Below, one piece after another: positions 33,549 to 38,416 of a stretch of DNA of 64,000 bases (positions within the stretch are counted from its first letter, which is position 1; each line of letters opens with the position of its first letter). A model generated the notes under the pieces. It did no database searches. It saw only the letters and a list, made by a program, of their open reading frames with translations, and was not told the origin of the DNA. The position numbers and the translations under genes are program-made. This DNA is from Thermogemmatispora onikobensis (GTDB lineage Bacteria > Chloroflexota > Ktedonobacteria > Ktedonobacterales > Ktedonobacteraceae), in contig NZ_BDGT01000002.1 of assembly GCF_001748285.1 (NCBI RefSeq), positions 1 through 64,000 on the forward strand, in the 5' to 3' direction.

Positions 33549-35147
33549 TCAGCTTCCTGAGCCGGGATGGGTCGTCTCCGGGCTGTCAGCTACGCGGGTC
33601 TGCAGGTACTCGCGCGCCAGCCAGAGGGCCTCTTCCTTCGAGTGGATACGCTCCTCGGCGCGGGCCTCAGCGATGACTTCGAGCAGTTCACCGATCAGTG
33701 GGCCTGGCTCCAATCCCAGACGGCGCATCAGCTCGTGGCCTGTCAGCAGGCGCGTTGGCAGAAAGCGCTCGCGCTCATGCAGATAGCTGCGCAGCAGCAG
33801 TGCTACGCAGGCAAGGTGTGCTTCCCAGGCACCAGTGGGGCGCCGGGGGTAGTCGGGGCCGTAGGTGGCCAGATGGTCGGCCAGTGAGAAAAGAGCCACA
33901 TGCAAACCCTGCACACCCAGATCGACAAAGTAGCGACGAATAGCACGCGGCGTCACCGTCTCCTGCTGGGCAAGCTGGCCCGGACGCATGTGATGGAGCG
34001 TCACCAGACGCACCAGATGGCGATCATGGCCGCTGGCGCTCAGGCGCTTCATCACACCCTCGGCGAGCGGGGCGCCAGCTTGCTGGTGGCCGTAGAAATG
34101 GCTGACTCCTTGCTCATCGTAGCTCAGGGTGACAGGCTTGCCGATATCGTGCAAAAGAGCGGCCAGCTTCAAAGCTGGTTTCGTCAGCTCGGAGAGCGAC
34201 AGCAGGTTCTGATGGCTCGCCTCGGCCAACAGCGCGCGCAGCTGGGCGATCTTCTCCGCCAGCTCAGGAGCCAGCAGGAGCGGCTGACTCCACGAAGCAC
34301 AGGACAGCTCGTCCAGTGAGAGCGGCTCGGGATACAAGGCGCGGACCACTGCCTCCAGGGCGCTCACGGTCTCTAGCGAGTGCTCAAAAACGTCCCAATG
34401 ATGGGGAGGTGGCTGTGGCATGCCTCGGGCGGGGGCCAGCTCCGGGATCAGGACAGTGAGCAGGCCGTGGTGATCGAGCAGACGCAAGCTGCTGGTGCCA
34501 TCCTCCTGTCCGAGCAGCTGGTACAGCTCGCCGTGGAGGCGCTCAGCCACCTCGGTGGCTAGCAGCCCGACGTCGCGGCGGATGAGAGCTTCGGTAGTGG
34601 GCTCGATCCGCAGGATGTAGCGGTGTGAAAGGCGGATGGCGCGCAGCAGACGCACCGGGCTGCTGCGAAAGACCTCCTCGTTGACTGCCCGCAGCAGACG
34701 AGCCTGAGCATCGGCGAGGCCACCGCAGGGATCGATCCACGGCAGGGAGAGCAGAGCGGAAGGAGAGGGCAGGCTCAGGAGTGCGTCCAGAGGTAGCGCC
34801 AGAGCATTCACTGTAAAGTCACGCTGGCGCAGGTCTTCCTCAATGCTGGAGCCCGCCAGCGGGGCCATGTCGAGCGTCCACTCGCCTGTTGGCTGGCGTA
34901 CCACGACCCGACTGGCTTTTTCATGCATATAGGCATAATAGCCGCCGAGGGCATCGGCCAGCTGGCGCGCCAACAGCGGCGCCTCACCGACGACGACCAG
35001 ATCCCAGTCGACGGTGGGTAGGCCCAGTAACAGGTTGCGCAAGGCCCCACCTACCAGATACACCTGAGTCTGGTGCCGCTCTGCAAAGAAGCGCGCTACT
35101 TGCTTCAGTAGCTCGTAGGTTTCTTGCTCTAAAAAAGGCACCGACAT
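33549..35147 (-). CDS. CCA tRNA nucleotidyltransferase / poly(A) polymerase family, with HD domain
   Basis: 532 aa. The nucleotidyltransferase signature is [24 protein letters not shown], with GG at 33-34 and the metal-binding D47xD49. Helical RNA-binding subdomains follow, and an HD phosphohydrolase motif LLHDIGKP has H333-D334. This combination is typical of bacterial CCA-adding or poly(A) polymerase-like enzymes of class II with an HD domain, which mature tRNA 3' ends. The family splits into CCA-, CC- and A-adding types, so the precise activity is undetermined. GGGAGAGAG sits next to the ATG at 35147. The gene is divergent from cas6 (198 bp apart). Confidence 0.9.
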
Positions 35148-35242
35148 CTCTCTCCCTGCTCATTAGATCGGGGTGGCAATGCCTGGGCGCGGAAAAAGGA
35201 GCTTCTCCCTGTCCCGTCAGCAGCCACCTTTCCTACTCCTGC

Positions 35243-35271
35243 TGGACAAGAGGTTATACATATTTTATGCT
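35243..35271 (+). promoter_or_regulatory. Candidate promoter of orphan cas6
   Basis: TGGACA (35243-35248, five of six), 17-bp spacer, TATGCT (35266-35271, four of six) in an AT-rich segment. An overlapping TGC-TAACAT at 35268-35276 could also serve as an extended -10. Confidence 0.5.
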
Positions 35272-35345
35272 AACATACAGTTGTGGCAGTTGCAACCATT
35301 AACCTGTGGTACATCTACATATGAGAGTTCTCGGAAGGGGCGAGC

Positions 35346-36347
35346 ATGGAAACCACAGCTCTAGTATCGCCGGGCAGCTTCAAAGCTGATCTTTATGCCC
35401 TGCATCTGCGATTGCGGCCATTGCAGCCGGGGACCTTAATGCCGTTTTCGGGAGAACTGGTGCATGGGGCCTGGCTCGAATGGCTGCGTGGTGCAGCCCC
35501 GGATGTCTCGGCACGCCTCCACGAAGGAAACAAGCGTCGCCTCTTCACCTGCTCCAGTCTGCAATTTCCGCTGCCGCCGGCCCAGGTCAGAGAGGCGGAG
35601 CGCAACAATCGGCACCTCCCGCTCAGCCCGGAGAAGACCTATACCATCCGCATTACCTTGCTGCTCGGCGAGCTATTCCCGCATTTCTACAAAGCCCTGA
35701 TCCAATTCAACCACTTCAGTGGCAATCTGCGCCGTTCACCTTTCATGCAGATTGGGCGCCAGGTCTTTCTGCTGGAAGAGGTCATTGCCAGCCCCGACGA
35801 CCCTGCACGCTGGACGGGTTTCACTACCTTTCGTGAGCTGGCTGCGCAAGCGGCCTTGTTGCAGCCCGCGCGCTGCGAACGCATGACTTTAGAATTTGAT
35901 TCCCTCACGACCTTTAATTGGATTAACACGCGCAACAAAGTCTATGGCAACTATTATGCTCTGCTTCCGTTACCACGCTACCTTTTCCCCGGCCTGGCCA
36001 AGCGCTGGCAGGAGCTCGTCTCACAAGAGCCGGAGACGCGCGAGCTGGCCGTGCTGGTCCAGCCTGAGCTGATCGAAGAGTATATTCTTGACGATGGTAT
36101 TGTCATCGACGACTATGACTTGCGCCCGCATCAGGTGCATTTCTCTACGCATGTTCAACCGGGCTTTATCGGGCGTTGCGTCTACCGCCTGCGTGGGCCT
36201 GATCCTCCGCCAGCCTCTGGGTCAGCGTTGGCGGCGGGGCCAGCTCTGACGGTGCGGCAACAGCTCTGGCTTCTCGCCTATCTGGCTTTCTACTCTGGTG
36301 TAGGGTACAAAACGCCTATGGGCATGGGGCGAGTGCGCCCTCTATAG
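35346..36347 (+). CDS. cas6: Cas6-like CRISPR RNA endoribonuclease, orphan
   Basis: 333 aa. The C-terminal Gly-rich signature GVGYKTPMGMGRVRPL closes the protein (the last 14 residues are 320-333), a hallmark of the Cas6 RAMP fold. A candidate catalytic His is H40 in GELVHGAWLEWL, where the related signature is usually GExxHGAxL. The N-terminal ferredoxin-like domain spans about 14-130. Cas6 cleaves the CRISPR precursor RNA within repeats. No other cas gene and no CRISPR repeat array lies in the window; the neighbours are a tRNA nucleotidyltransferase and an FHA-PrsW protein. Hence it is an orphan that may serve a remote array or have another RNA substrate. AAGGGG precedes the ATG. Confidence 0.85.
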   Translation: METTALVSPGSFKADLYALHLRLRPLQPGTLMPFSGELVHGAWLEWLRGAAPDVSARLHEGNKRRLFTCSSLQFPLPPAQVREAERNNRHLPLSPEKTYTIRITLLLGELFPHFYKALIQFNHFSGNLRRSPFMQIGRQVFLLEEVIASPDDPARWTGFTTFRELAAQAALLQPARCERMTLEFDSLTTFNWINTRNKVYGNYYALLPLPRYLFPGLAKRWQELVSQEPETRELAVLVQPELIEEYILDDGIVIDDYDLRPHQVHFSTHVQPGFIGRCVYRLRGPDPPPASGSALAAGPALTVRQQLWLLAYLAFYSGVGYKTPMGMGRVRPL

Positions 36348-36589: not shown

Positions 36590-38416
36590 ATGAGCCAGAG
36601 CTATGGTGTGCTACGGGTGGTGCGCATGTCCCACCTTCAACCCCCAACGACGCGGGGCTGGGCCATACGTACGCGCTCTCCAGTTGTCTGGTTGCCTGAT
36701 GAGCAGCTGGTGCACGTCCTGACGCGGCGTGAGACCAGCATTGGGAGGGCGCTCAGCAACGACGTTATCCTGATGGATCTCGCGGTCTCGCGCGAGCATG
36801 CGCGCGTGGTGCTCGATAGCGATGGTTGCTGGTACATTATCAACCTGACGCCTCACAACGTGATTCGGGTCAACGGGCAAGTCATTCCCTCGCGTGTGCC
36901 TTTTCCCCTGCGTTCCCAGGATATCATCGTCTTAGGCAGCACGATGCTCCAATTCCTGGCTCCCCATGTGGCTCTCGTGGGAGAGAGCGGAGAGCGGGCA
37001 GAGCAGATAGATGTCCGCTCTGCTGAGCAGGTCACGCAGTTGCTGCCGAGCACCCCCTCCCTGGGAGTCTCGCCTGCGTCTGGTGCTTCCATTCCGCCCA
37101 CCCTGCCGCCGGGCGAAGGAGGAATGACGGTCTTTGGGCCTTGGGGTGAGGAGGAGGGCGAAGAGGAGGACCTGCTTGGAGCGGGCATTACCATGCAATT
37201 CGCTCTCTCGCCGCGACTGGGAAGGCGTATGCGCTGGCTCATGGCCGGTGTTGGACTCAGTGTTCTCGCCATCTGTGCCCTCATGACCCTCATCCTCAAC
37301 AGTTTCATTGGCATCAATGCCCTGACGCAGAATGGCGCTTCCAGTCTGCTGGCTGCTCTCACCATTCCGCTCATTCCTGCCCTCGCTACCCTACTGCTCG
37401 TCAACTTTATCGATCGGTTCGAGCGAGAGCCGTGGTATCTTCGCCTGGCTACCTTTCTCTGGGGTATGGTAATTGCCATTCCCACCGCCTTCTTTATCGA
37501 GCGCCTGATCGATGGCGTGCTTCTCAATCTCTTGGAGCCGGGCACAAGTACGGTTCTGCGCTCGGCCTTGCAGGGTCTCAACGCCGGTTTCACTGAAGAG
37601 ACCGTTAAGGGGCTGGGCCTGCTCCTGCTCTTTCTGGTCCTGCGCGACCAGTTTGACAATATCACAGACGGCATTGTCTACTCGGCCATGATTGGGGCCG
37701 GCTTTGCCCTGGTAGAGAACTTCAGCTATTTCGCCAGTGGTTATCGCAACTCGCTGGTCTTTCTCATTATCTACCGGGTTGTCCTGGGCTGGTTGGGACA
37801 TCCGACCTTTACCGCCTGTTTTGGCGCGATGCTGGGCTACACGCGCCACACGCGCTCACGCTGGCAACAGGTGATCACCCCGTTGCTGGGCTACATCATG
37901 GCTGTCATGCTGCACAGCTTTTTCGATTTTGTGGACATTCAGGCGGGCATGGAGGTTCAGGCTAATCCTGGCAATACGCATGTGGCCATGTTAGCTCTGG
38001 TAGCGATCATCTGTGACTACGTTCCTCCTTTCCTTGCCCAGATGATGCTGCTCTATCTACTGATTCGCTCGCTGGCCCAGGAGGCGGCCATCATCCGCGA
38101 GTTTCTGGCCACCGAGGTGAGCAATGGCGTGGTCACGGTCGACGAGTATGCTTTACTGCAGCACTCCTTTCAGCGCACGCGCCAGGAGCGTAAGGCCCTC
38201 TGGCAGTATGGTTTCAAGCATTGGCTACGGGTCAAAGCCCTCTATCAAGCGGAGATTGGCCTGGCTTTTCGCAAGTGGCATGTGAGCATGGGCGACAGTC
38301 AAAAAAACGGCTATCTGCGCCAGCCGGAAGATGTCTATCGGGAGCGCATTCGCCGTTTGCGCCAGGAAATTCGCGCATTTGAGGAGCAGGAGCGAGCGAG
38401 GCGACGGGGGACCTGA
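36590..38416 (+). CDS. FHA domain - PrsW-family intramembrane protease fusion
   Basis: 608 aa. An N-terminal FHA domain (about 48-115) has GR at 52-53 and SREH at 67-70, the phosphothreonine-binding core. A 100-residue acidic/Pro linker follows, then a polytopic domain (about 215-510) with PrsW motifs: FTEETVK at 334-340, the FALVEN motif near 372-377, HPTFTACFG at 404-412 and HSFFDF at 442-447. PrsW proteases cut anti-sigma factors or related membrane proteins. Coupling to an FHA domain suggests control by Ser/Thr kinases. The C-terminal ~90 residues are a charged helical tail. The start may be 36590 or the ATG at 36626 (no strong Shine-Dalgarno for either). Confidence 0.85.
   Translation: MSQSYGVLRVVRMSHLQPPTTRGWAIRTRSPVVWLPDEQLVHVLTRRETSIGRALSNDVILMDLAVSREHARVVLDSDGCWYIINLTPHNVIRVNGQVIPSRVPFPLRSQDIIVLGSTMLQFLAPHVALVGESGERAEQIDVRSAEQVTQLLPSTPSLGVSPASGASIPPTLPPGEGGMTVFGPWGEEEGEEEDLLGAGITMQFALSPRLGRRMRWLMAGVGLSVLAICALMTLILNSFIGINALTQNGASSLLAALTIPLIPALATLLLVNFIDRFEREPWYLRLATFLWGMVIAIPTAFFIERLIDGVLLNLLEPGTSTVLRSALQGLNAGFTEETVKGLGLLLLFLVLRDQFDNITDGIVYSAMIGAGFALVENFSYFASGYRNSLVFLIIYRVVLGWLGHPTFTACFGAMLGYTRHTRSRWQQVITPLLGYIMAVMLHSFFDFVDIQAGMEVQANPGNTHVAMLALVAIICDYVPPFLAQMMLLYLLIRSLAQEAAIIREFLATEVSNGVVTVDEYALLQHSFQRTRQERKALWQYGFKHWLRVKALYQAEIGLAFRKWHVSMGDSQKNGYLRQPEDVYRERIRRLRQEIRAFEEQERARRRGT

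Follow-up and report, generated by a model that had tools for sequence, protein, structure and literature searches.

What does a single cas6 gene do when it stands beside a tRNA nucleotidyltransferase gene, in a stretch of chromosome that holds no other part of a CRISPR system? The window analysed here takes up the first 64 kb (1-64000) of the 239.6-kb contig C2 in the 5.56-Mb genome of Thermogemmatispora onikobensis, a heat-loving soil bacterium, and carries such an orphan cas6 on the plus strand (35346..36347, 333 aa). We consider it quite probable that the encoded protein is a trans-acting, crRNA-processing Cas6 that serves distant arrays, and our best reading of its origin is that the gene was left from, or became detached from, a type III locus.

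The orphan cas6, its candidate active site and its upstream region

The open reading frame is intact, and its product passes both Pfam cut-offs for Cas6, scoring 52.9 bits for PF10040 (CRISPR_Cas6; cut-off 25) and 28.7 for PF19308 (CRISPR_Cas6_N; cut-off 23.9). Several PADLOC Cas6 models also match, the best at 1.5e-19, while the NCBIfam equivalog TIGR01877 gives 40.1, under its cut-off of 58.65. The C-terminal glycine-rich loop GVGYKTPMGMG (residues 318-328; 36297..36329, plus strand) aligns with the loops of Thermus Cas6A and Cas6B, and the top solved structure by sequence, using phmmer, is Thermus 'CAS6B' 4c98 (E 3e-6). With a Cas6 profile, the glycine-rich loop and a candidate catalytic histidine, the protein is, as judged from its sequence, a genuine but divergent member of the family, and the complete Cas6-like protein described in the first-pass annotation is borne out. 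An AlphaFold model reached a mean pLDDT of 32.6, its alignment input consisting of just six near-identical sequences, a value too low to judge the two RRM/RAMP domains typical of the Cas6 fold. Orthologues at 91-97% identity are all found in Thermogemmatispora.

A catalytic histidine is typical of Cas6 enzymes, but not universal. The first-pass annotation had put forward His40 (codon 35463..35465, plus strand) as the candidate, and this residue is indeed present, aligns with a histidine of Thermus Cas6B 4c98 (phmmer) and is retained in 21 of the 21 clade members having that column, the I-D Cas6 group from these organisms carrying Gln instead. Yet the histidine common to every Cas6 compared is His59 (codon 35520..35522, plus strand), which likewise aligns with a histidine of 4c98, and which an alignment of 33 Cas6 proteins shows to be invariant, in the orphan's clade as well as among 11 outgroup sequences. 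As such, His59 is the probable catalytic histidine, and His40 would take the first active-site position. Arg65 (codon 35538..35540, plus strand), for its conservation in the clade, is a candidate to occupy the triad's Lys position; its column holds Arg in 22/22 clade members, and Arg or Lys in the other Cas6 compared. Based on spacing, His40/His59/Arg65 would match the Tyr31/His46/Lys52 triad of Pyrococcus furiosus Cas6 (PMC3652601), with His59 in the place of His46.

The gene is under strong constraint. Simple pairwise NG86 estimates of dN/dS range from 0.043 to 0.066 over five Thermogemmatispora genome pairs, compared to 0.10-0.18 for the neighbouring CCA gene and 0.11-0.12 for the FHA-PrsW gene. 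Within the pair G000-G003 (G000 being the genome studied here) the orphan stands at 0.046, the I-D cas6 at 0.112 and other cas genes at 0.09-0.35, which places it below its neighbours as well as below every other cas gene compared. These values show a working, constrained protein, and do not distinguish between a function in CRISPR and some other one.

Conservation extends into the 125 bp 5' of the gene (35221..35345, plus strand), where 93% of the columns are identical among six Thermogemmatispora, against 46% at the third codon positions of cas6. This stretch is single copy, restricted to the genus, and among the top 2.9% of local 125-bp windows by conservation, with some other windows ranking higher. 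It contains a promoter-like TGGACA-17-TATGCT (35243..35271, plus strand) that is conserved in the genus. The idea that cas6 has its own promoter gains from the position of this site within so well-conserved a stretch, but the site is a 9/12 match to consensus, and three promoter-like sites occur in the region where 0.7 would be expected. We read the stretch as a conserved promoter plus leader that may also serve the divergent CCA gene. A structured RNA was considered at this position as well, and rejected: the stretch folds no more stably than shuffled sequences, it is a single-copy, genus-only element, no Rfam family attains its gathering score across the window, and near cas6 there is no convincing match, the lone sub-threshold one lying on the opposite strand, downstream of the gene.

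The isolation of cas6, first noted for the 64-kb window, holds for the whole 239.6-kb contig. No repeat arrays were found in the window or in the remainder of the contig, and neither were matches to Cas1, RAMP or Cas10 on it. A repeat relic flanking the gene was also rejected, as the best matches reach 22-23 of 37 positions everywhere in the window, and no higher beside cas6.

The CCA/FHA-PrsW interval and the relatives of the orphan

Pfam confirms the neighbours that had been assigned to the gene. Upstream and divergent lies a CCA/polyA-polymerase-type tRNA nucleotidyltransferase with an HD domain (33549..35147, minus strand; PF01743, PF12627 and PF01966), and downstream lies an FHA-PrsW protein (36590..38416, plus strand; PF00498 and PF13367). 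The latter has a match in all 29 family genomes and adjoins the CCA gene in most loci read, and the CCA-type gene is found at this position in relatives whether or not they have cas6 there. In nine family genomes the pair has neither cas6 nor other query-matching cas genes between its members, and a lone cas6 sits there in each of the six Thermogemmatispora as well as in G009 and G016, which represent two other genera. More than a lone cas6 is found in three further genomes: G018 has, in order, an NE0113-type gene, a Csx3 gene, cas6, a 118-aa ORF and FHA-PrsW; in G013 (L156, G013:C380) the interval holds a III-B operon together with NE0113, Csx3 and Csx15 genes; and in G017 it holds Cmr1 and Csx15 fragments. 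The simplest reading is that the interval is a CRISPR insertion or remnant site that once held type III material, from which Thermogemmatispora keeps its cas6.

Cas6 proteins of the same clade occur in I-D loci (G006, G015 and G027), in a III-D-like locus with an array (G027), near a Cas10 gene (G023) and, in G007, some 200 bp away from a bare array. In G016, a genome that is 85% complete, the copy at the CCA locus is the only Cas6 detected, and both arrays and a III-D-like operon are present. The association of the clade with III-D-like Cas10 has a p of 0.002 when counted by species, and of 0.5 when counted by genus. The p-AU for one shared origin of the copies at the CCA locus is 0.036 with a long outgroup and 0.12-0.14 without it; the trees do not resolve the deep branching order of the clade, and they neither establish nor firmly reject one lineage for these copies. 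Clade members are also solitary at different places in G025, G013 and G011 (L083, L084 and L085), with no array found and no neighbour matching the cas queries.

Distant arrays and the probable role of the orphan

Elsewhere, the genome carries at least seven CRISPR arrays, with 37-nt repeats ending in GATTGAAA. These were sought by pattern search and in selected stretches, such that the count may leave out any repeats with ends other than GATTGAAA or TTGAAAC. All repeats found have a GTCRGAA start in common besides the GATTGAAA end, and terminate in ATTGAAA plus one base; each folds no better than its shuffles, and any hairpin is therefore weak. PF10040 detects exactly three Cas6 genes in the whole genome: one in the I-D locus, one in the I-A locus and the orphan. 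The I-D locus (contig C59) has four arrays alongside its own Cas6, and the I-A locus (C26) comprises Cas7, Cas8a, Cas5a, Cas3, Cas4, Cas1 and Cas6. No Cas6 gene accompanies the III-B operon of C10 or the III-D-like operon, with its SAVED effector, of C8; since PF10040 finds just the three above, neither operon has one that is visible to that profile. The other arrays are located on contigs C6, C100, C74 and C95. As a separate observation, the complete-looking I-A locus (L007-L011) has a Cas6 that contains cysteine. No array for this locus was found on its own 80-kb contig, and it may likewise use distant arrays.

The same dispersed layout is seen in T. carboxidivorans PM5, where it is not an assembly effect, as this genome is a single contig. 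Its three Cas6 genes lie at 0.926, 1.234 and 2.746 Mb, and type III operons are found near 0.77 and 3.62 Mb, so that roughly 146 kb or more separates the orphan cas6 from every effector operon. Two of its arrays are at the I-D locus, and three (2.959, 3.042 and 3.262 Mb) lie away from those cas loci that were examined. The orphan is intact in 6/6 Thermogemmatispora genomes, and arrays are present in all six (G000-G005) as well as in G016. Two features of the III-B operons in this genus are recorded separately. T. tikiterensis (G001) alone has an extra Cas6, related to I-A Cas6, directly after Cmr6 (L243:11283-12260). Furthermore, cmr1 is just 46% identical between two Thermogemmatispora species (L068:11876-12874 and L231:13385-14425), the neighbouring cmr genes read being about 78-91% identical, and this divergence suggests that cmr1 was replaced.

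How, then, would the orphan act? Made from its own promoter and with its candidate residues intact, it would act in trans, binding the 37-nt repeats (of the GTCRGAA...GATTGAAAC type) in CRISPR transcripts encoded elsewhere. The cut would probably fall before the last 8 nt (AUUGAAAC), yielding crRNAs with an 8-nt 5' handle. Probable main recipients are the III-B and III-D-like complexes, whose operons lack a cas6. As for the gene itself, it probably came to the CCA/FHA-PrsW interval, or persisted in it, as one component of a type III locus later lost or broken up there. From cleavage, cut site and the arrays and complexes served to the direction of evolution, this is an inferred scheme. The suggestion that the orphan may process distant arrays is supported by the seven or more arrays, by two type III operons that are without Cas6, and by clade members beside arrays and cas operons.

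Several points count against this reading: the hairpins of the repeats are weak, the association with III-D-like Cas10 is significant by species and not by genus, the copies at the CCA locus are not shown to form one lineage, and the I-D or I-A Cas6 could process these arrays too, the 3' ends of the repeats being common. The orphan might then be redundant, with a back-up or narrow role, the arrays being mainly cut by the I-D or I-A enzyme, or another RNase acting for type III. We regard this as unlikely, though less so than the other alternatives. It would fit the GTCRGAA and GATTGAAA ends found on all repeats in the genome, and it has a parallel in Synechocystis CRISPR3, which includes a Cmr2 gene and whose crRNAs are unaffected by any cas6 knock-out (PMC3575380). 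A redundant copy, however, should not be the most constrained of the cas genes (0.046, versus 0.11 for I-D cas6 and 0.09-0.35 for others), and G016, at 85% completeness, appears to have no other Cas6 to which its copy could be a back-up. Still less probable is a gene in decay, left over from a vanished type III locus and now functionless. The full III-B operon of G013 and the fragments of G017 in the same interval speak for it, but a gene that is intact in all six Thermogemmatispora, with a dN/dS of 0.04-0.07 and invariant candidate active-site residues, argues against it, and the selection result already disfavours it.

The first-pass annotation had also raised the possibility that the enzyme was repurposed for another structured RNA, proposing as signs of this a genome free of arrays, or CCA-cas6 synteny in relatives that have none. 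Neither lends it support: arrays do exist in this genome, and the synteny is kept, but in array-bearing genomes (the six Thermogemmatispora and G016). For the remaining lone copy, that of G009, a search that covered just GATTGAAA arrays and clustered TTGAAAC arrays found neither. A Cas6 processing a non-CRISPR RNA, for instance one linked to tRNA metabolism, would account for the place beside the CCA enzyme, which is kept in other genera too (G009 and G016), and would agree with the very low dN/dS and the conserved upstream stretch. We nevertheless think it very unlikely, given that CCA and FHA-PrsW are adjacent without cas6 in nine other genomes, such that no functional tie is needed, and that the interval holds type III genes in relatives. 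Furthermore, the upstream stretch is not unusually folded, and Rfam offers no family at gathering score in the window, nor a convincing match near cas6. A gain of a second, housekeeping RNA substrate besides CRISPR repeats seems similarly improbable; if true, it would explain a constraint stronger than that of the other cas genes compared and even of the adjacent CCA enzyme, and also the well-kept leader. Processing of distant arrays in trans stays our preferred reading, and with Thermus as a precedent for Cas6 acting in trans, it is also the ordinary explanation for an orphan of this kind.

Comparison with known systems

A Cas6 encoded apart from effector genes is already known from Thermus, and the picture of Cas6 is unchanged by this locus. 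What it adds is a dispersed CRISPR layout kept across a genus, with the effector operons, the arrays and the processing enzyme each in a different location, along with a place in the chromosome where type III genes are found time and again, and a testable case in which two type III complexes may be served by the same Cas6. In Sulfolobus solfataricus, a multiple-turnover Cas6 is able to feed several complexes (PMC4041471). That organism resembles ours in having several Cas6 families and repeat families per genome (PMC4041471), but its Cas6-1 is without the canonical catalytic histidine, for which the orphan has a candidate. Pyrococcus furiosus Cas6 offers the likeness of a stand-alone enzyme with a triad (PMC3652601, PMC3150331), where the corresponding positions of the orphan, as placed by spacing, read His40/His59/Arg65. 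The closest parallel in arrangement is Thermus thermophilus, in which Csm crRNA maturation begins with a Cas6 'encoded elsewhere in the genome' (PMC5256923). Its Cas6A and Cas6B, acting for Csm (III-A), share with the orphan a gene set apart from the type III effector operon, and Cas6B is in addition the best sequence match in the PDB, with two aligned histidines. In contrast to Thermus, the effectors in Thermogemmatispora are III-B and III-D-like, cleavage by the orphan is predicted, and its gene sits in a CCA/FHA-PrsW interval that is found family-wide.
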